A stretch of DNA of 64,000 nucleotides from an uncultured Agrobacterium sp. GTDB lineage: Bacteria > Pseudomonadota > Alphaproteobacteria > Rhizobiales > Rhizobiaceae. Both the position numbers and the translations under genes were made by a program. Numbering within the stretch: the stretch's first letter is position 1; every line of letters starts with the position of its first letter. Below are positions 55,077 to 64,000 of this stretch, one piece after another. The stretch covers positions 1 to 64,000 of the forward strand of contig CAJYTK010000011.1 in NCBI GenBank assembly GCA_913777615.1, in the 5' to 3' direction. The notes beneath the pieces were generated by a model, which did no database searches, was not told where the DNA came from, and saw only the letters and a list, made by a program, of their open reading frames with translations.

Positions 55077-56153
55077 TCAAAGGCGCTGTTCGGTCTCATG
55101 GTCGAAGAGATGCAGAGATGCCGGATCGATGTTGAAGCTCACTAGGTCGCCGGCTTTCACATTGCTCCTTCCCTGAAGCGCCACCGTCATTTCCGGCTGC
55201 GTCGCCGTGGTGACGGAGGTCGCTGACCCTGTTGTTTCCACGATCCCGACCGGCAGCGTGATCATCGAGGATCCGGGCGGTGCGAGCGTGATGTGCTCGG
55301 GCCGGACGCCGACCGTGACCCGCATACCCGGTACAATAGCTAAGGGCGACATGATCGTTTGAGACTTCGACTTTCCACCGAAATTCAAAACGAGCGTTCG
55401 TCCGTCTTCCGCCGCGACAGCCGACACGAAATTCATAGCGGGGGAGCCAATGAAGCCAGCGACAAAGCGGTTCACCGGCCGGTCATAGAGCTCAAGCGGC
55501 GCTCCCTGCTGTTCGATAGCGCCGGCTCGCATGACGACGACATGGTCGGCCATGGTCATGGCTTCAATCTGGTCATGCGTCACGTAAACGGACGTTGCAT
55601 CCAGACTGTTGTGCAGTTTGCGGATTTCAGCGCGCATGTGGACGCGGAGCGCTGCATCGAGGTTGGAAAGCGGCTCGTCGAAAAGAAAGGCCTTGGGATT
55701 GCGGATGATGGCGCGGCCCATTGCCACGCGCTGGCGCTGACCACCGGAAAGCTCGCGTGGATAACGTTGGAGGAGATTAGTCAGGCCGGTGATCTCGGCG
55801 ATCTCCTCCGCCTTGCGCCGCGCGTCGGCCTTGGCCACACCCTTGAGGCGAAGCGAATAGGTAAGGTTCTTCTCCACTGTCATATGGGGATAGAGCGCAT
55901 AGGACTGGAATACCATGGCGATATCGCGCATGCGTGGCGGCTGGCGGGTGATATCCTCGCCTTTGATCCGGATCGTGCCGCTTGAGATCGTTTCCAGACC
56001 AGCGAGTGTCCGTAGCAAGGTCGACTTGCCGCAGCCGGATGGCCCCACAAGCGCCACGAATTGACCCTTGGGGATGGCGATATCGATGCCACGCAGCGCG
56101 TGATAGGCGCCGTAGTGTTTCTGGATGCCGGACAGTTCGATCTGCAATGTCAT
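55077..56153 (-). CDS. sugar ABC transporter ATP-binding protein (UgpC/MalK class)
   Basis: This 358-residue ATPase has Walker A VGPSGCGKST (about residues 33-42), signature ELSGGQRQRVAMGRAI, Walker B AFLFDEPLSNLD, and a C-terminal OB-like regulatory domain (GMRVTVGVRPEHITLAPPG), the MalK/UgpC layout. It energises the two permeases encoded just upstream. Its start overlaps the second permease's stop by four bases. In many rhizobial systems one such ATPase serves several importers; here it belongs to the operon. Confidence 0.95.
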   Translation of the reverse strand: MTLQIELSGIQKHYGAYHALRGIDIAIPKGQFVALVGPSGCGKSTLLRTLAGLETISSGTIRIKGEDITRQPPRMRDIAMVFQSYALYPHMTVEKNLTYSLRLKGVAKADARRKAEEIAEITGLTNLLQRYPRELSGGQRQRVAMGRAIIRNPKAFLFDEPLSNLDAALRVHMRAEIRKLHNSLDATSVYVTHDQIEAMTMADHVVVMRAGAIEQQGAPLELYDRPVNRFVAGFIGSPAMNFVSAVAAEDGRTLVLNFGGKSKSQTIMSPLAIVPGMRVTVGVRPEHITLAPPGSSMITLPVGIVETTGSATSVTTATQPEMTVALQGRSNVKAGDLVSFNIDPASLHLFDHETEQRL

Positions 56154-56980
56154 TTGAGCGCTCCGGATGTCAGCCCGCTGACGATGCGGCGCTGAAGCAG
56201 GACGAAGATGATGAGAATGGGCGTTACATAGATCGCCGCGAAGGTCATGATGCCGGTCCAGTCGGAGGCGTTCGGCCCGACGAAGAACTGCAAGCCGACC
56301 GTCGCTGGCTGGAAGGCGCGATCGGTAATAAGCGAGCGCGAATAGACATATTCGCCGAGCGACTGAAGGAAGATAAGAATTGCGGAAACGAGAATGCCGT
56401 TTCGCGCAAGCGGCACCGAGATGCGCAAGAACGCGCCGATGCGACTGTTCCCATCCACCATGCCCGCCTCTTCGAGTTCACGCGGCACCTGGGTGAAGGC
56501 GGCACGCACCAGGACGATATAGAGCGGCAGCTTGTTGGCAGCGGTCGCCAGGATCACGCCCGTGCGCGGCCATGACAGCAGGCCAAGCTGGCTGAAGGCG
56601 ACGAAGATGGGCGTCACCATCAGGGACGGCGGCAGAACTTGCAGCATCAAAACAAGGAAGAGCGCCATATCCATCCAGATAGAGCGGACACGCGCAAGGG
56701 CATAGGCGCAACCCGTACCGAAGAGCACGACAAGCGACACCGTGCCAAAGGCGATGATCAGCGAGTTCTGGATGAAGGTATCCATGCCCATGTCGTTCCA
56801 GACACGGGTTATCTTCAACTCTGGATGATGCGGCCAGAGTGTCGGCGGATTGGCGAAGGTTTCGGTATTGGTCTTCAGCGCCGTCACATACATCCAGTAG
56901 AGCGGGAAGAGGTAGATAGCGACGACGACGAGGGCGATGGCCAGCAGAAGCCAGCGTTTCCAGAGGTTACTAGACAACAT
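56150..56980 (-). CDS. carbohydrate ABC transporter permease (MalG class)
   Basis: This 276-residue protein has six hydrophobic segments and the EAA loop EEAGMVDGNSRIGAFLRISV (residues about 184-203) that contacts the ATPase. The start ATG 56980 follows GAGGCACGAAC and overlaps the end of the first permease gene by 11 bp. It forms a heterodimeric pore with the MalF-like protein. The C-terminus is short and polar, as usual. Confidence 0.93.
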   Translation of the reverse strand: MLSSNLWKRWLLLAIALVVVAIYLFPLYWMYVTALKTNTETFANPPTLWPHHPELKITRVWNDMGMDTFIQNSLIIAFGTVSLVVLFGTGCAYALARVRSIWMDMALFLVLMLQVLPPSLMVTPIFVAFSQLGLLSWPRTGVILATAANKLPLYIVLVRAAFTQVPRELEEAGMVDGNSRIGAFLRISVPLARNGILVSAILIFLQSLGEYVYSRSLITDRAFQPATVGLQFFVGPNASDWTGIMTFAAIYVTPILIIFVLLQRRIVSGLTSGALK

Positions 56981-57872
56981 GTTCGTGCCTCGTCGAGCGG
57001 ACATAAGCGGTGGCAACGACGATGACCAGAAGGGTCATCACGACGGAAACGACCGACCCATGGCCAATGCGATACTCGCGGAAGGCAAGCTCCCACGACC
57101 AATATTGCAACACGTTGGAGGCATTGGATGGCCCGCCTTGGGTAAGCGCTGCGAAGAGGTCGAACTGCTGCAGGGTGAAGATGATACCGAGCGAAATGAC
57201 GGCACCAAGCTGCGCCCGCATCATCGGCAGCGTGATGGTGAAGAAGCGCTGCAGTCGCGTCGCGCCATCGAGTTCCGCCGCCTCGTAGACATCGTCGGGG
57301 ATCGAAGCGAGGCCGACCGACAGCAGGATCATGTTGAAGGGGACGCCGAGCCAGATATTGGCGATGATGACGGAATAGATCGAGATCGACGGATCAGAGA
57401 GCCAGAAGATCTTCTGCTGGGTGATACCGAGCGATTGCAAAAGCCAGTTCACCACGCCGAAGTCACCGGCCAGAATCCAGCCCCAGATCGCACCGACCAC
57501 CAGTCCCGGCATGATCCAGCCCGCGAGGAAAAGACCACGCAGCCACGAGGCACCGGGAAAATCAAGCCGGAAGAACAAGGCGAGCGCCAGCCCAATGCCC
57601 AGCTGGAAAATGACCGAAAGAAAGACGAACAGAAAGGTGTTTCGAACAATCGGCATGAATAGCGGATCGTCTATGATCTCGCGGTAATTATCGAGACCGA
57701 CAAACGGACGATCGAAGGTGGCGATGGTGAAGAGATCGACGCTCTGGAACGAGATGACAAAATTATAGATCAACGGAAAGGCTGAAAATGCGACAAGATA
57801 GGCGAGCGCGAACAGCACGAGCACACTGTCAAATCCGCCACCATCCCGAAAAACTCGATTGAAACGAAGCAT
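56970..57872 (-). CDS. carbohydrate ABC transporter permease (MalF class)
   Basis: This 300-residue protein has six hydrophobic segments and the EAA loop YEAAELDGATRLQRFFTITL (about residues 203-222). The N-terminus (LRFNRVFRDGGGFDSVLVLF) and FVGLDNYREII are typical of the CUT1 class. ATG 57872 follows GGGAGGTGAA; the longer open frame to 58061 runs into the binding-protein gene region and is not coding. A 139-bp gap with a weak stem-loop separates it from the binding-protein gene upstream. Confidence 0.92.
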   Translation of the reverse strand: MLRFNRVFRDGGGFDSVLVLFALAYLVAFSAFPLIYNFVISFQSVDLFTIATFDRPFVGLDNYREIIDDPLFMPIVRNTFLFVFLSVIFQLGIGLALALFFRLDFPGASWLRGLFLAGWIMPGLVVGAIWGWILAGDFGVVNWLLQSLGITQQKIFWLSDPSISIYSVIIANIWLGVPFNMILLSVGLASIPDDVYEAAELDGATRLQRFFTITLPMMRAQLGAVISLGIIFTLQQFDLFAALTQGGPSNASNVLQYWSWELAFREYRIGHGSVVSVVMTLLVIVVATAYVRSTRHEHVV

Positions 57873-57956
57873 TTCACCTCCCGATATCTCACATGAGCAT
57901 CCCCGGGTGCTATGACCTACCCTAGGGATTGAAGCGCTCAAGCAGTTTGCAAACCG

Positions 57957-57985
57957 GCTGCGGACGAGACTTCTTCGCCCGCAGC
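57957..57985 (-). repeat. stem-loop between binding-protein and permease genes
   Basis: GCTGCGG (57957-57963) pairs with CCGCAGC (57979-57985) across a 15-base loop. Such hairpins between a binding-protein gene and its permeases often lower downstream expression or protect upstream mRNA; that role here is inference. Confidence 0.45.
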
Positions 57986-58011
57986 ACTTTGAGACAGACA
58001 GATGCTGCGGA

Positions 58012-59220
58012 TTATTTGCCCAGGATCTTGTCGATCGATTTCTGTGCCGTCGCCAGGGCATCTTCCGCCTTGGCCTGACCAGTCAGCGTCGTCTGAATGG
58101 CAACCTGAATCGCCTTTGAAATCTTCGACCAGTCGGGGCTTGGCCCGCGGTTGCGCGCAAACTTCATCGACTCTTCGAACACCTTGTAGGCCTGCGGGTA
58201 TTTCGGGTCTTCGGTCTTGACCGGATAGGCCGGAACGTAACCGAACTCGTTCCAGACACGCGGCATCTGCTCATACATATATTCGATGAACTTGAAGGCT
58301 TCCTCCGGATGCTTGGAGTTGGCAACGATGACGTTGTCGCCCTCTCCAAGCGCGGAGGCATGCGGCGCGCCTTCCTTTGGAACAGGCAAGATCGCGACGC
58401 GATAGTCGAATTTCGCGTCCTGACTAATGCGCGGCAGCTCCCATGGGCCGGAAATGCTCATCGCAGCGTTGCCGGCATTGAAGGTGCCAGTGGAATCCCA
58501 TTGACCACGGATCAGCGTGTCCTTGGACGCGAGCCCCTCGTCGATGAACTTCTTCCACAGTGTCAGCGCTTCGACACCGCCCGGGACATTGACCTTGTTG
58601 TAATCACCGCCCGCCATCTGCAGCCATGGCAGGAACTGGAACGTGCCTTCTTCGGTCGCTGCGGCGGAGAAGGCCAGGCCATAAACGCCCTTATCCGGTT
58701 GCGTCAGCTTCTTGGCGGCATCGTAAAGCTCGTTCCATGTCTGCGGTGGTTTGTCCGGATCGAGGCCTGCGGCCTTGTACATGTCGGCATTATAGTAAAG
58801 CGCGATGGTGTTTGCGCCGCGTGGGATACCGTAGACGCCGTCCTTATAGGTAACGGAAGCGAGTGGGCCAGGCAGGATCTGGTCGAGCTTGATGACCGAG
58901 CTTTTTTCGATCATCGGCTTCATGTCGAGCAGCAGCTTGCGCGATGCAAAGAGCGCTACATCCGGATTGTCGATATAGGTAACGTCTGGCGCTTCACCCG
59001 TCGCCATGGCTTTCGCAAGTTCGTTGACCATATCCGGGAACTGAACCGAGCGGACGTTGACCTTGATGTCCGGGTTCTTGGCCGAGAATTCCTCCGCCAT
59101 CTTGTAGTGGTACTCTCCCGGCCGATCGACGGTCCAGAGATTGATCTGAACCGGCTCCGCCCATGCGGGCGTCGACAATGCGGCAAGTGCAACTGCACCC
59201 ATAAGCTTTGCAATAGTCAT
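58012..59220 (-). CDS. CUT1 sugar ABC transporter substrate-binding protein
   Basis: This 402-residue protein has a signal peptide (MTIAKLMGAVALAALSTPAWA) and the type II binding fold of extracellular solute-binding family 1: VQINLWTVDRPGEYHYKMAE, DVTYIDNPDVALFASRKLLL, YGIPRGANTIALYYNADMYK and AAMSISGPWELPRI. ATG 59220 follows AAAGGAGGAG. Upstream by 53 bp is the isomerase-like gene, downstream the two permeases. The ligand is probably a mono- or disaccharide or a sugar derivative but cannot be named. Confidence 0.93.
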   Translation of the reverse strand: MTIAKLMGAVALAALSTPAWAEPVQINLWTVDRPGEYHYKMAEEFSAKNPDIKVNVRSVQFPDMVNELAKAMATGEAPDVTYIDNPDVALFASRKLLLDMKPMIEKSSVIKLDQILPGPLASVTYKDGVYGIPRGANTIALYYNADMYKAAGLDPDKPPQTWNELYDAAKKLTQPDKGVYGLAFSAAATEEGTFQFLPWLQMAGGDYNKVNVPGGVEALTLWKKFIDEGLASKDTLIRGQWDSTGTFNAGNAAMSISGPWELPRISQDAKFDYRVAILPVPKEGAPHASALGEGDNVIVANSKHPEEAFKFIEYMYEQMPRVWNEFGYVPAYPVKTEDPKYPQAYKVFEESMKFARNRGPSPDWSKISKAIQVAIQTTLTGQAKAEDALATAQKSIDKILGK

Positions 59221-59272
59221 GATACTCCTCCTTTGATCATGATTGCGATGCCGGCCTCCACCGGCCTTATCC

Positions 59273-60205
59273 TTACAGAAGCGACGGGTCGCCGCCTCCA
59301 TATTCTGCGGCGAGATCGACGAAGGTCCCTCCCCGGCTATGCTTCAGATAGTTGAGCGCATGGACCTGACCGGTCATTTCCAACTGATCGCGATAGACTG
59401 GATCATGCCAGCCTTCGATGTCGATCGAGCCTGACCAGCCGGCCAGCCGAAGCTCGGAAATGATATTGGTCCAGTTGCTGTCGCCGAAGCCTGGCGTGCG
59501 CATGAAAACGAATGGGTGCTTGCCGAAGATGCCGTGTTCCTTGATCACATCCCAACGGATGGTCGCGTCCTTGCCATGGACGTGGAAAATCTTGTGCGCC
59601 CATTTGCGGATTTGCGGCAGCGGGTCGATCAGATAGACCATCTGGTGACAGGGCTCCCACTCAAGACCGATATTGTCGTCTGGCGTCTCGTTGAACATCA
59701 TCTCCCAGGCGTCCGGGTTGTGCGCTATGTTCCAGTCGCCCGTCTGCCAGTTGCCGTCCATGGCGCAGTTCTCAAACGCAATCTTCACACCCTTGTCGGC
59801 AGCGCGTTTCGCCAGCTCGCTCCAGATTTGCTTGTAGCGTGGCAAGCTCTCCGGCAAAGGCTTGCCCCGGACGCGGCCAGTAAAGCCTGCCACGCAGGTG
59901 GCGCCAAAATGATGGGCGTTGTCGATGCAGTCCTTCCAGCCTTGAAGGGTCTGGAGGTCCATCTCCGTCTCTTCCAGCGGATTGCCGAACATGCCGAGCG
60001 TCGAAATGGTGATATCGCGATCGCCGATGGCCTCGACGCAACGCTTGCCAAGCTCCGCAAGATCCTGGCCATTGGTCGTCTGCCAGAAGAACGGTTCGAA
60101 ACTCTCGAAACCAAGGTCGCCGATTTCAGAGATGCGCTCGGCGGCGTCTCCCTTTGTCGCACTGACCATGGTGCCGATACGGACGGATTTTGCTGGATCG
60201 CTCAT
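59273..60205 (-). CDS. sugar phosphate isomerase/epimerase-family TIM barrel (AP endonuclease 2-like)
   Basis: This 310-residue protein has the xylose isomerase-like TIM barrel: VRIGTMVSATKGDAAERISE at the start, a metal-ligand Glu in VKIAFENCAMDGN, IGLEWEPCHQMVYLIDP with Glu and His, FHVHGKDATIR with His and Asp, and GSIDIEGWHDPVYRDQL with Glu. Members isomerise or dehydrate sugars and inositol derivatives; the LEWEPCH motif is seen in sugar-catabolic clusters with Gfo/Idh/MocA partners. It lies 8 bp after the oxidoreductase gene and ahead of the ABC genes in the same operon. Confidence 0.88.
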   Translation of the reverse strand: MSDPAKSVRIGTMVSATKGDAAERISEIGDLGFESFEPFFWQTTNGQDLAELGKRCVEAIGDRDITISTLGMFGNPLEETEMDLQTLQGWKDCIDNAHHFGATCVAGFTGRVRGKPLPESLPRYKQIWSELAKRAADKGVKIAFENCAMDGNWQTGDWNIAHNPDAWEMMFNETPDDNIGLEWEPCHQMVYLIDPLPQIRKWAHKIFHVHGKDATIRWDVIKEHGIFGKHPFVFMRTPGFGDSNWTNIISELRLAGWSGSIDIEGWHDPVYRDQLEMTGQVHALNYLKHSRGGTFVDLAAEYGGGDPSLL

Positions 60206-60213
60206 ATTAGACC

Positions 60214-61248
60214 TCAGATTTCGATAGGAACACGCCGGCCAGTGCGGGCGCTTTCAATCGCGCCCATGACCATGGCCAAGCTTTTAATATTGTCGGACGA
60301 AACTGTTTCGGGAACTGTGCCGTTTTCGATCGCCCTAAGGAACGACAGGAGCACGCTAGCATGCCCTTGCGTCTGCTCCTCGTCCACAGTTTCAGAAACG
60401 TTTACGGAAGACGCTCCACGCAGAAGACCGTTGTCTGTCCCCGCCAAGGACGCGGAGAAATTGCCTTCCCCATCCCACAGGATCATACCCTCAGATCCGA
60501 CCAACCGCCATGTGCTTTCCCAACTCGTACGCTCGCCTTCGGCACACCAAGAGCCGCGATAGGTAAACACCACATCATTGGACAGTTCGAAGATCGCGTT
60601 GGCCGATGCGCCGTGGGCATACCAGGAGCCGGCAGGATTTTTCTCGACGCAGTAGACCGCAAGAGGATCCTGATCGACCACGAAACGCGCTGCATCGAAG
60701 GTGTGGATTGCCATGTCCAGCAACAGCACATTCTGCATGTCTTCGCGGAAGCCGCCGAAGTGCGGCGCAAGAAAGAAGTCGCAGTGAATGGCGGTCAGCG
60801 TGCCGATGACCCCATCCTGAACGGCGCGACGCAAGCGACGTATGCCTCTGATAAAGCGTCTGTTTTGAACGATCGCGTGGATTTTTCCGGCATGCGCTGC
60901 CAAGTCGATCAGCGTCTTCGCCTCTTTGAGAGAAGGCGCCATCGGCTTTTCGCTCAACACGTGGCACCCCGCCGCCAATGCGGTGGCGACCACGCTGAAA
61001 CGCGCATCAGGAATGACAACGTCGAAAACCACGTCTGCACTGGTTTTGGTAAGGACGTCCTCGAGGTCGTTGCCGATGACGACGTCGCGGAGCGAGAACT
61101 CGTCGGCTAGAGTTCGTGCCGCGGTTTCGTTCAAATCGACAAGACCGCATATGCGGATTGAGGCCTGCAAATCTGGATGTGATTCGATCGCGCGCAGCCA
61201 GCCTTTGGCCATAGCTCCGCACCCGCACAAAACGGCGTTCAATGTCAC
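60214..61248 (-). CDS. Gfo/Idh/MocA-family oxidoreductase
   Basis: This 344-residue enzyme has an N-terminal Rossmann fold (LNAVLCGCGAMAKGWLRAIE) and the family catalytic motif HVLSEKPMAPSLKEAKTLI, with EKP lysine at about residue 95, then the larger alpha-beta substrate domain. Substrates of the family are sugars, inositols or their derivatives, oxidised with NAD(P). GTG 61248 is chosen because GGGGAGGA sits four bases upstream; a TTG at 61287 would add 13 residues. It is the first gene of the minus-strand operon, 55 bp from a perfect LacI-type palindrome. Confidence 0.9.
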   Translation of the reverse strand: MTLNAVLCGCGAMAKGWLRAIESHPDLQASIRICGLVDLNETAARTLADEFSLRDVVIGNDLEDVLTKTSADVVFDVVIPDARFSVVATALAAGCHVLSEKPMAPSLKEAKTLIDLAAHAGKIHAIVQNRRFIRGIRRLRRAVQDGVIGTLTAIHCDFFLAPHFGGFREDMQNVLLLDMAIHTFDAARFVVDQDPLAVYCVEKNPAGSWYAHGASANAIFELSNDVVFTYRGSWCAEGERTSWESTWRLVGSEGMILWDGEGNFSASLAGTDNGLLRGASSVNVSETVDEEQTQGHASVLLSFLRAIENGTVPETVSSDNIKSLAMVMGAIESARTGRRVPIEI

Positions 61249-61294
61249 ATGATCCTCCCCGCTGCGCGCAAACTCCTCTTTGCGCAACCAGCTT

Positions 61295-61310
61295 TCGTAA
61301 ACGTTTACGA
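61295..61310. promoter_or_regulatory. perfect 16-bp LacI-type operator
   Basis: TCGTAAACGTTTACGA is a perfect palindrome with the central CG of classical LacI/GalR-family operators. It lies in the divergent gap, centred about 55 bp from the sugar operon start and 82 bp from the lacI ATG, so one site could control both. Confidence 0.92.
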
Positions 61311-61384
61311 GACTATGCTTAAGATGCTAGATGTGTCAAGACGATAGTGAAAGGCTTCTCAATTCCGGAGCCGGGAGGACATGC

Positions 61385-62425
61385 ATGAAGGGCATACGCC
61401 AGCTCGCAGACTATCTGGATATCTCCATCGGCACCGTATCCCGCGCCTTGAACGGCAAGCCGGACGTGAATGACGACACCCGCCGCAAGGTTCTGGAGGC
61501 AGCCGAAAAGCTCGGTTATGTCGCGAACCAGTCTGGACGGAGTCTGAGACAGGGAACGACCAACGTCATTGGCCTGATGACAGGCAGCGATGCGCAGACT
61601 GTCGAGAATGCAGACAACTTCTTCCTCGGCCTGACGGATGGGCTGCAAAGCGTGTTTTCCGCCCACAATCTCGATCTCATTGTGCTGCCTTGTCCGGCCG
61701 AAGAAGATCCGGATGAATATTTAAAGCGGATGGTAGCGCGGCGCATGGTCGATGCGATGGTCATCTCCTCCACCAGCAGGATCGACAAGCGTGTCGATTT
61801 CCTCAAGCAGACACGGCTTCCCTTTGTCACTCTTGGGCGAACGGGTTCCAGCACCGATCACGCCTGGATCGATCTCGATTTCGAAGGCGTGGCGAGAACC
61901 GCCGTGCTTCGTCTTGCCGCTGCAGGTCATCGTTCAATAGCCGTTGCTGCACCAGATACCGATATCAACCTCGGCTACGTTTTTCTGGAGGGGTATCGCA
62001 AGGGTCTGCAGGAAGCTTCGCTCCCCTATGACGACCAACTCATCATCCGCGCCAAGTCCAGCGAACAGGGTGGCTATCACGCGGCAAGCGAATGGCTGCA
62101 AATGCGCCCACGCCCAACGGCGCTTATTCTGATCTACGAATTGATGGCAATCGGTCTCTACCGGCGCTTGGCCGAGGTTAACCTGCGCGCCGGACAAGAT
62201 CTCGCTGTGATCGGGTTTCGCGAAGGACCGAGCGGCCAGTTTCTCGAGCCGAGGCTCACAAGTTTTCGCATGTCGCTGCGTGATCTCGGCGTCTCTGTCG
62301 GCAAGACCCTGCTGTCGACCATGCCGGCTTATAGCAGCTTTTACCCCGATCAGCCAAAAAACATCATCTGGCCGATGCAGCTCATTCCGGGCGATAGCGA
62401 TATCTCCGCCTCGCAATCCAAATGA
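61385..62425 (+). CDS. LacI-family regulator of the adjacent sugar operon
   Basis: This 346-residue regulator has its helix-turn-helix at the extreme N-terminus (KGIRQLADYLDISIGTVSRA) followed by hinge LNGKPDVNDDTRRKV, and a periplasmic-binding-like ligand domain (LVARRMVDAMVISSTSRI, FVTLGRTGSSTDHAWIDLDF, LAVIGFREGPSGQFLEP). ATG 61385 follows GGGAGGA. It is divergent from the sugar operon and convergent with the fusion oxidoreductase gene, and the single perfect palindrome between is its most likely binding site. Confidence 0.93.
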   Translation: MKGIRQLADYLDISIGTVSRALNGKPDVNDDTRRKVLEAAEKLGYVANQSGRSLRQGTTNVIGLMTGSDAQTVENADNFFLGLTDGLQSVFSAHNLDLIVLPCPAEEDPDEYLKRMVARRMVDAMVISSTSRIDKRVDFLKQTRLPFVTLGRTGSSTDHAWIDLDFEGVARTAVLRLAAAGHRSIAVAAPDTDINLGYVFLEGYRKGLQEASLPYDDQLIIRAKSSEQGGYHAASEWLQMRPRPTALILIYELMAIGLYRRLAEVNLRAGQDLAVIGFREGPSGQFLEPRLTSFRMSLRDLGVSVGKTLLSTMPAYSSFYPDQPKNIIWPMQLIPGDSDISASQSK

Positions 62426-62464: not shown

Positions 62465-64000
62465 TCAAGCCTCAAGCCAACGGACCTGCTCAGGCGTCAG
62501 CTTGATGTCGAGCGCCGACAGGCTGTCTTCCAACTCGGCGATGGTCCGTGGACCGATCAGCGGGATGACCGGGAATGGCTGGGCGATCACATAGGCAAGT
62601 GCGATGTGGATCGGATGACGGCCAAGCTCCTTTGCGAGCTCGATGGCACGGTCACGGCGCTCGAAATTGCGCTCGGAGTACCAGACGCGCACGATCTCTT
62701 CGTCGTCGCGCTTGTCCCGGCCTGCTCTGTCCGTGAAGAAGCCTCGGCCTTGGCTTGACCAGGCAAAGTTCGGGATCTGGCGTTCTTTCGCCCACTCTTT
62801 CCAGGGCTCGTCAGACGCCGCCACGCATCCGGCCCAGATCGGGTCCAGCATCTCGGCCAGCGAGAAGTTGTTGGACAGCGCGCCGGGTGCTGTCTTGCCG
62901 GTCTTCTCAGCATAGGCAATCGCCTCATCCATGCGCTGGCGCGTCCAGTTCGAACCACCGAAAATGCCTCTGATGCGCCCGCGCTTCACCTCGGCATCCA
63001 TGGCATCGACGAATTCACCCACAGGGACATCGGTATTGTCGCGATGCATGAAATAGATGTCGACATAATCCGTCTTCAGCCGGTTCAACGATTGGTCGAG
63101 CTGCTTGGCGATAACGTCAGGATAGCAAAGCGGCGAATGCGCTCCCTTGCCGATCAGCACGATCTCTTCACGCGGAACGTTGCGGCTGGTGTGCCAGTCG
63201 CCGAAGATCGCTTCGGTCTTGCCGCCGCCATAGACGAAGGCTGTATCGAACAGATTGCCGCCTGCCTCGTAGAAGCTGTCGAGCGTCAGCGAGGCGGAGG
63301 CGAAGTTGGGAAAGAACTCGAAACCGAGCGCCACGACGGAGGCAGGCTTTGCAACGCCCGGAATCTGCCGCTTGGGCACGGAATTGCCGGGAGCGACCTT
63401 GCCGCCAGCGATGTTCAGAACTCGCTTGGCTGCGGTCTCCACACCATATTCCAGGCCGACCGATGCGCGCCACTGGTCCATGACCCTGAGGTTCCCGAGC
63501 GTATCGGCCCAGCTCATCCCAGGATAAGCAAATTCCGGTGATGTGTTGCGGATGGCCTCACCCGCCGCATCGACTTCGAACGAGTAAAGATAGCGATCTT
63601 CCGCCACATTGATGGTCTGGCGTTCCTTGCCCTTAATCACATCGATCTTGCCGACCCCGCCCTTATGGCCGGAGGCGAACCAGAAGTCTGGCACTTCGAT
63701 GCGCCCTTCAGAGCCGATGATGCGCAGCACGTTATCCTGGTTTGCCATGATCGAGCAGGAGACTTCGGCTATGATATCATTCGGAAATTTCAGGACGGCG
63801 GACGCCCATTCATCGACGCCCGACTGACCGAGATGGGCGACGCCGGACACCTTGGTAGGCTCGATAAAAGGCTGACCGGAAGCGGCACCGGCAATTAGCC
63901 GTGCCATGGAAACCGGATAGCCTCCGACATCGAGAATGCCGCCACCGGCACTCTCATTGGCAAAAAGCCGATGATCAGCGCGGAAGCTGCCCATGCTGAA
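62465..64000 (-). CDS. Gfo/Idh/MocA oxidoreductase - aldo/keto reductase fusion (5' end beyond the window)
   Basis: The frame enters from the right edge, so the N-terminal Rossmann domain is not visible. Counting from the first visible Met (63994), residues 1 to about 200 are the C-terminal domain of a Gfo/Idh/MocA oxidoreductase (GGGILDVGGYPVSMARLIAG, LRIIGSEGRIEVPDFWF). From about 215 an aldo/keto reductase barrel follows, with the complete catalytic tetrad: Asp250 and Tyr255 (LFDTAFVYGGG), Lys283 (VLIGKGAHS), His317 (YFMHRDN). The C-terminus has IPLIGPRTIAELEDSL, the NADP-binding end of AKR enzymes. There is no stop or start between the two parts. It ends 39 bp from the convergent lacI and could act on the same sugar as the operon. 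Confidence 0.9.
   Translation of the reverse strand, partial: FSMGSFRADHRLFANESAGGGILDVGGYPVSMARLIAGAASGQPFIEPTKVSGVAHLGQSGVDEWASAVLKFPNDIIAEVSCSIMANQDNVLRIIGSEGRIEVPDFWFASGHKGGVGKIDVIKGKERQTINVAEDRYLYSFEVDAAGEAIRNTSPEFAYPGMSWADTLGNLRVMDQWRASVGLEYGVETAAKRVLNIAGGKVAPGNSVPKRQIPGVAKPASVVALGFEFFPNFASASLTLDSFYEAGGNLFDTAFVYGGGKTEAIFGDWHTSRNVPREEIVLIGKGAHSPLCYPDVIAKQLDQSLNRLKTDYVDIYFMHRDNTDVPVGEFVDAMDAEVKRGRIRGIFGGSNWTRQRMDEAIAYAEKTGKTAPGALSNNFSLAEMLDPIWAGCVAASDEPWKEWAKERQIPNFAWSSQGRGFFTDRAGRDKRDDEEIVRVWYSERNFERRDRAIELAKELGRHPIHIALAYVIAQPFPVIPLIGPRTIAELEDSLSALDIKLTPEQVRWLEA

Follow-up and report, generated by a model that had tools for sequence, protein, structure and literature searches.

Does the open reading frame (ORF) that runs off the end of this stretch of DNA encode two oxidoreductases in one chain and, if it does, what might such a protein do with a sugar? 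The stretch, here called the window, comprises the first 64,000 nucleotides of contig CAJYTK010000011.1 from an uncultured Agrobacterium sp. (C11:1-64000 of a 4.55 Mb genome), and its last gene, on the minus strand, joins a Gfo/Idh/MocA-type oxidoreductase to an aldo/keto reductase (AKR). We find that this fusion is real and that both catalytic sets are kept across the fused proteins collected, and we tentatively connect it with galactose-type sugars or keto-sugars.

One frame with two catalytic sets

Extending the sequence past base 64000 reveals a single open frame of 671 residues spanning both domains (C11:62465-64480, minus strand; 667 residues if the next downstream ATG is taken as the start). 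Its start and N-terminal Rossmann domain are intact, which bears out the in-frame fusion that the first-pass annotation had proposed from the truncated gene. Its parts are laid out as follows.

62465..64000, minus strand: part of the fused gene visible in the window (open frame)
63446..64000, minus strand: Gfo/Idh/MocA half, residues 161-345, including D184 and Y188 (Pfam, motif places)
Outside the window, minus strand: residues 1-160, with the Rossmann domain and EKP at 101-103 (Pfam, motif places)
63347..63445, minus strand: linker, about residues 346-378, the least conserved stretch (column conservation)
62474..63346, minus strand: aldo/keto reductase half, about residues 379-669, with D412, Y417, K445 and H479 (Pfam 392-669; boundary at 379 set by eye)

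On the 671-residue protein, Pfam places GFO_IDH_MocA at residues 11-127 (78.1 bits) and GFO_IDH_MocA_C3 at 139-262 (69.5 bits), both above cut-off, followed by Aldo_ket_red (PF00248) at 392-669 (162.6 bits against a cut-off of 24); the Gfo/Idh half therefore has both the Rossmann and the C-terminal domain of its family. Gfo/Idh/MocA proteins are marked by an EKP lysine and an Asp/His-or-Tyr pair, and the AKR superfamily by an Asp-Tyr-Lys-His tetrad. The Gfo/Idh half carries EKP (101-103) and GGGILDVGGYP (179-189), and the residues first listed as Asp250, Tyr255, Lys283 and His317, counted from the first visible methionine, correspond to D412, Y417, K445 and H479 in the complete chain.

These positions were followed through 160 fused loci of at least 9 kb, shorter loci and one duplicate having been dropped, which yield 158 distinct proteins; about half of the loci are close relatives (L015-L094), and rows are not independent. 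K102, D184 and Y188 in the Gfo/Idh half and D412, Y417, K445 and H479 in the AKR half are invariant in all 158, with R43 kept in 157 and R645 in 151. Among 51 representatives, whose lowest pairwise identity is 37%, mean column conservation falls to 0.475 in the linker, compared with 0.69-0.74 elsewhere. The domains and the invariant residues uphold the proposal that one chain contains two sugar oxidoreductases, each with its active site preserved, and both halves are apparently working enzymes. As for a free AKR made from an internal start, ATG or GTG codons occur at 334, 347, 368 and 383, by eye with no clear ribosome site.

A sequencing frameshift or assembly join has a negligible probability and is rejected, with nothing found in its favour: the gene is full length, with no internal stop, in 38 of 39 genomes of the genus (the window's own included; G025 lacks it), and of the 427 matching plasmid records, 196 span 80% or more of its length, although the Paenibacillus one among them does so with two genes.

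Distribution and unfused relatives

Nearly universal in its genus, which includes A. cavarae, the fusion also turns up under seven family codes within the order and under two beyond it. Three draws of genomes, which overlap, trace this range. An even draw of the family gave matches at E 1e-100 in 38 of 297 genomes, 37 with both halves and one (G040) with the Gfo half only. In the order, 57 of 397 genomes matched at E 1e-50, 54 with both halves (in G522 the match begins at residue 69) and three with the AKR half only (G553, G398 and G586). Across the phylum, 17 of 398 matched at E 1e-45, comprising 12 with both halves, among them G993 and G1020, which do not belong to the order, and five Gfo-only matches at 33-37% identity. 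Around G1020, two of 60 genomes matched at the same threshold, namely G1020 and one with the Gfo half alone at 37%; the fusion therefore appears sporadic there. The best 80 of 305 named loci belong to Rhizobium, Agrobacterium and other Rhizobiales, and the AKR stretch at E 1e-35 matches 203 plasmid records, 126 from Rhizobium and 65 from Sinorhizobium. Two genomes hold two fused copies each (G017 at C45:153007-155004 and C18:3430-5436; G087 at C4:201731-203731 and C2:358661-360658); the second copies are only 61-62% identical to the window's fusion and adjoin a gene of glycoside hydrolase (GH) family 42.

Homologues encoded always as two separate genes would have counted against the fusion, and this is not what the survey returned: unfused forms amount to one adjacent pair, in Paenibacillus, and lone halves in four genomes (AKR in G553, G398 and G586; Gfo in G040). 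In Paenibacillus cellulosilyticus (L142:9995-11951) the Gfo/Idh and AKR homologues are adjacent separate genes, the Gfo/Idh frame stopping before an AAGGAGG and then the ATG of the AKR. Such a gene order is a Rosetta-stone argument that the two work together.

The lone halves retain their catalytic residues. Quick trees of each half, built on the 51 fused representatives with Shimodaira-Hasegawa-like approximate likelihood ratio (SH-aLRT) support only and one partial Gfo row left out, broadly agree with each other. The three lone AKRs share a clade with six fused proteins, and the G040 Gfo, also a lone half, branches among fused sequences; because they group in this way, the lone halves suggest later loss of one half, tentatively, as several branches are long. 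Among the more distant Gfo genes, two differ at R43. AKR homologues in Enterococcus (L235) and Listeria (L236) adjoin a sugar isomerase-like gene, annotated in the former and recognized by eye in the latter, and no Gfo/Idh gene was noticed within the 13-15 kb viewed.

Importer and galactose context

Neighbouring genes were called with a simple script based on codon usage and took their labels from BLAST matches to genes of the window, and their names are approximate. The first-pass annotation had seen a sugar ATP-binding cassette (ABC) neighbourhood that might form one pathway with the fusion, a view of which one part stands. What is conserved is an importer lying upstream and outside the window, in the order binding protein, permease, permease, ATPase; both permease genes are upstream on the same strand in 140 of the 158 distinct fusions. 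An AraC-type regulator is found within six genes in 119 of 158, resembling MelR at 157 bits, under the MelR cut-off of 253, and the complete order of divergent AraC, binding protein, two permeases, ATPase and fusion recurs in 112 of the 160 loci, as it does in the R. johnstonii annotation. In S. meliloti ml66 the fusion instead adjoins a ROK regulator, without importer genes.

The part that fell away concerns the operon inside the window. A second importer operon (55077-62425) encodes a solute-binding protein, two permeases (by eye) and an ATPase, together with the following genes.

60214-61287: Gfo/Idh gene
59273-60205: xylose-isomerase-like TIM barrel
61331-62425: LacI regulator, divergent

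This Gfo, TIM-barrel and importer set resembles keto-glycoside pathways. It adjoins the fusion in only three of 158 cases (L002, L015 and L229, this genome and two near relatives), and one shared pathway is rejected as a general rule; in those three loci it may still apply. In G1020 (L177) the fusion adjoins another Gfo/Idh gene, a TIM barrel and importer genes, that Gfo being 27% identical to the window's Gfo gene.

Galactosidase-type genes (GH2, GH42 or GH4) lie within five genes of the fusion in 16 of 160 loci. GH2 sits between permease and ATPase in six (L150, L173, L206, L208, L217 and L223) and in a divergent importer operon in two (L165 and L170); a GH42 gene is the direct neighbour of the fusion in L147, L148 and L151; GH4 is next to it in L162 and L176 and two genes off in L211, L222 and L227. 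Pfam confirms the GH genes of L147, L148, L150, L162, L165 and L160. The GH2 of L150 scores 1009 bits to the beta-D-galactosidase 5ldr, the GH4 proteins of L162, L176 and L211 score 631, 680 and 579 bits against an alpha-galactosidase cut-off of 486, and no NCBIfam model matched the GH42 of L147 and L148. In a control count, GH2 and GH42 together gave 11 hits among 1577 ORFs near the fusion and none among 1041 far ones, although five of the six query glycosidases came from near ORFs and only their places inside operons are informative. The Rhizobium tumorigenes annotation reads importer, beta-galactosidase and 'aldo/keto reductase', the last being the fusion, and the lone AKRs of G553 and G398 lie after importer and GH4 genes. 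In the window's genome, some 280 kb away on the same contig (L246; G000:C11:338500-358000), a cluster of GH4, binding protein, permeases, ATPase and GH4 (GH4 by Pfam, the rest by eye) resembles the one beside the fusion in L211, L222 and L227.

Routes for galactose were sought in 44 hand-picked genomes (31 fused, three lone-half and ten without the fusion). None of the 44 has a galactokinase over cut-off; DgoK occurs in 42, and its presence does not separate fused from unfused genomes. The two with neither, G528 and G533, carry the fusion. Genes of the De Ley-Doudoroff galactose route lie near the fusion in G476, where DgoK, 2-keto-3-deoxy-6-phosphogalactonate (KDPGal) aldolase (279 bits, cut-off 207) and a Gfo/Idh gene lie no more than about 12 kb from the GH2 gene, the importer and the fusion, and by eye in G448, with DgoK there. 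The Gfo/Idh gene of G476 is closest to D-galactose 1-dehydrogenase 4ew6 (E 5e-110), with L-arabinose 1-dehydrogenase next (about 2e-98). That the fusion is merely the galactose 1-dehydrogenase is unlikely given this separate homologue; since a distinct galactose oxidation step is present, the imported sugar probably undergoes some other reaction on the fusion. Two loci (L238 and L239), from genomes of about 44% G+C that belong to the same taxonomic order, hold a compact cluster in which the fusion, the importer and GH2 are joined by DgoK, KDPGal aldolase and a galactose-1-dehydrogenase homologue, with profiles run on L238 only.

What the two halves may do together

Taken singly, both halves are ordinary members of known superfamilies. 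The Gfo/Idh half is nearest in sequence and fold to sugar 3-ketoreductase; Foldseek ranks the unnamed oxidoreductase 3evn first and KijD10 next, a fold likeness also common to C1 oxidoreductases. KijD10-type sugar 3-ketoreductase, dihydrodiol dehydrogenase, aldose-aldose oxidoreductase and glucose-fructose oxidoreductase share 21-27% identity with this half in structural alignments, and KijD10-type and related Gfo/Idh enzymes are chains of single-enzyme length (310-390 residues), in contrast to the 671 of the fusion. Scores stayed below the NCBIfam cut-offs for inositol 2-dehydrogenase IolG (TIGR04380; 86.7 against 355 bits), D-xylose 1-dehydrogenase Gfo6 (NF041392; 85.4 against 350) and levoglucosan dehydrogenase (NF052479; 69.7 against 650), and far under them for each of the six AKR models listed by NCBIfam for the fusion. 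The AKR half shares the Pfam domain and the D/Y/K/H tetrad with its superfamily, and its nearest solved chains are DepB, 2,5-diketo-D-gluconate reductase, AKR6D1 and IolS, although the best of them reaches only 75.6 bits.

The explanation we favour, while holding it short of probable, is a single-chain sugar oxidoreductase with two active sites, probably NADP(H)-dependent in both halves, acting on a galactose-type sugar or keto-sugar from the upstream importer. The importer would bring in the substrate, the Gfo/Idh half would oxidize or reduce a ring hydroxyl or ketone, and the AKR half would perform the opposite step on the same molecule, with NADP(H) recycled within the pair; the net product would be an epimerized sugar that may then enter galactose or glucose catabolism. 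The pairing of oxidation with reduction is the least certain step. We place a redox-neutral epimerase slightly ahead of other readings because opposite tasks for two NADP-type enzymes explain the fusion best, and because the reticuline epimerase of opium poppy (REPI/STORR), as presented in part of a published account, is likewise a natural fusion of oxidizing and reducing modules that epimerizes by oxidation and then reduction (PMC10813097). That enzyme differs in its first module, a P450 unrelated to Gfo/Idh, and in its plant alkaloid substrate. A self-contained epimerase that recycles its own NADP(H) and acts on free galactose or galactosides, with a ring hydroxyl oxidized by one domain and the ketone re-reduced with opposite stereochemistry by the other, is doubtful.

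Several observations weigh against a coupled enzyme for galactose-type sugars. The lone AKR persists in importer-GH4 operons (G553 and G398) and the lone Gfo in G040, and the halves are therefore not obligately coupled. In place of R645, the Paenibacillus AKR has Q and those of Enterococcus and Listeria have E. Most operons lack a glycosidase of the three types sought, and GH4 is no denser near the fusion (5 of 1577 near ORFs) than far from it (6 of 1041). In the structure model, on which the (alpha/beta)8 barrel of an AKR and the relative placement of the active sites would be read, most of the AKR half has a predicted local distance difference test (pLDDT) score below 50, probably because the alignment was shallow (49 rows, 48 of these 83-88% identical to the first).

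Of the rival accounts, salvage of keto-sugars survives best, as a possibility on the doubtful side: both halves would be NADPH-dependent reductases returning 3-ketogalactose or a 3-ketogalactoside, formed by glucoside 3-dehydrogenase chemistry, to ordinary sugars, and the gene would be that of a 3-keto-hexose reductase. The affinity of the Gfo half to sugar 3-ketoreductase fits, qualified by the spread of that fold among C1 oxidoreductases. In the levoglucosan pathway (LgdA-LgdB1-LgdB2-LgdC), C3 oxidation is followed by reduction of 3-keto-glucose by LgdC, a Gfo/Idh enzyme, with redox in balance; that pathway differs in using four separate proteins, and the excerpt describing it mentions no AKR (PMC7676230). 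Part of a study of lactose catabolism cites 3-ketoglucose reductase activity from A. tumefaciens as biochemical evidence, naming no gene, and calls the fate of 3-ketogalactose unknown; its Caulobacter candidates for 3-ketogalactose use, however, are other genes (PMC9007349). The presence of the fusion in 38 of 39 genomes of the genus that includes A. cavarae agrees with salvage; against it, no keto-glycoside hydrolase or 3-dehydrogenase gene was identified in the operon, where no profile search for either was run.

Oxidation of an aldose at C1 with cofactor recycling, in which one half would convert galactose or another aldose to a lactone and the other spend NADPH on a second carbonyl, as a two-domain analogue of glucose-fructose oxidoreductase, is unlikely: the G476 cluster already has its D-galactose-1-dehydrogenase homologue, as by eye does G448, and the ten genomes picked for lacking the fusion have DgoK just as often. 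Less likely still is that the halves act separately, the fusion merely equalizing their amounts or one half being structural. The poorly conserved linker and the existence of lone halves suit such an arrangement, but none of the 158 proteins departs from either catalytic set, and in Paenibacillus the halves are adjacent even when unfused.

No description of this fusion was found in open-licence literature, part of that search using a spelling of the family name that was probably unable to match its slashed form. Listed, named plasmid records call the fusion 'aldo/keto reductase' or 'Gfo/Idh/MocA family oxidoreductase', and once 'oxidoreductase'; because such names reflect one half only, the pairing goes unseen. 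The fusion offers a concrete candidate gene for the 3-ketogalactose question in lactose catabolism, and keto-sugar salvage would bear on that gap, as the consulted part of the study frames it (PMC9007349). If the enzyme is a coupled epimerase, it would be a ready-made biocatalyst in one chain, and, if true, would give bacteria that yielded no galactokinase match a way of changing galactose-type sugars without sugar nucleotides.
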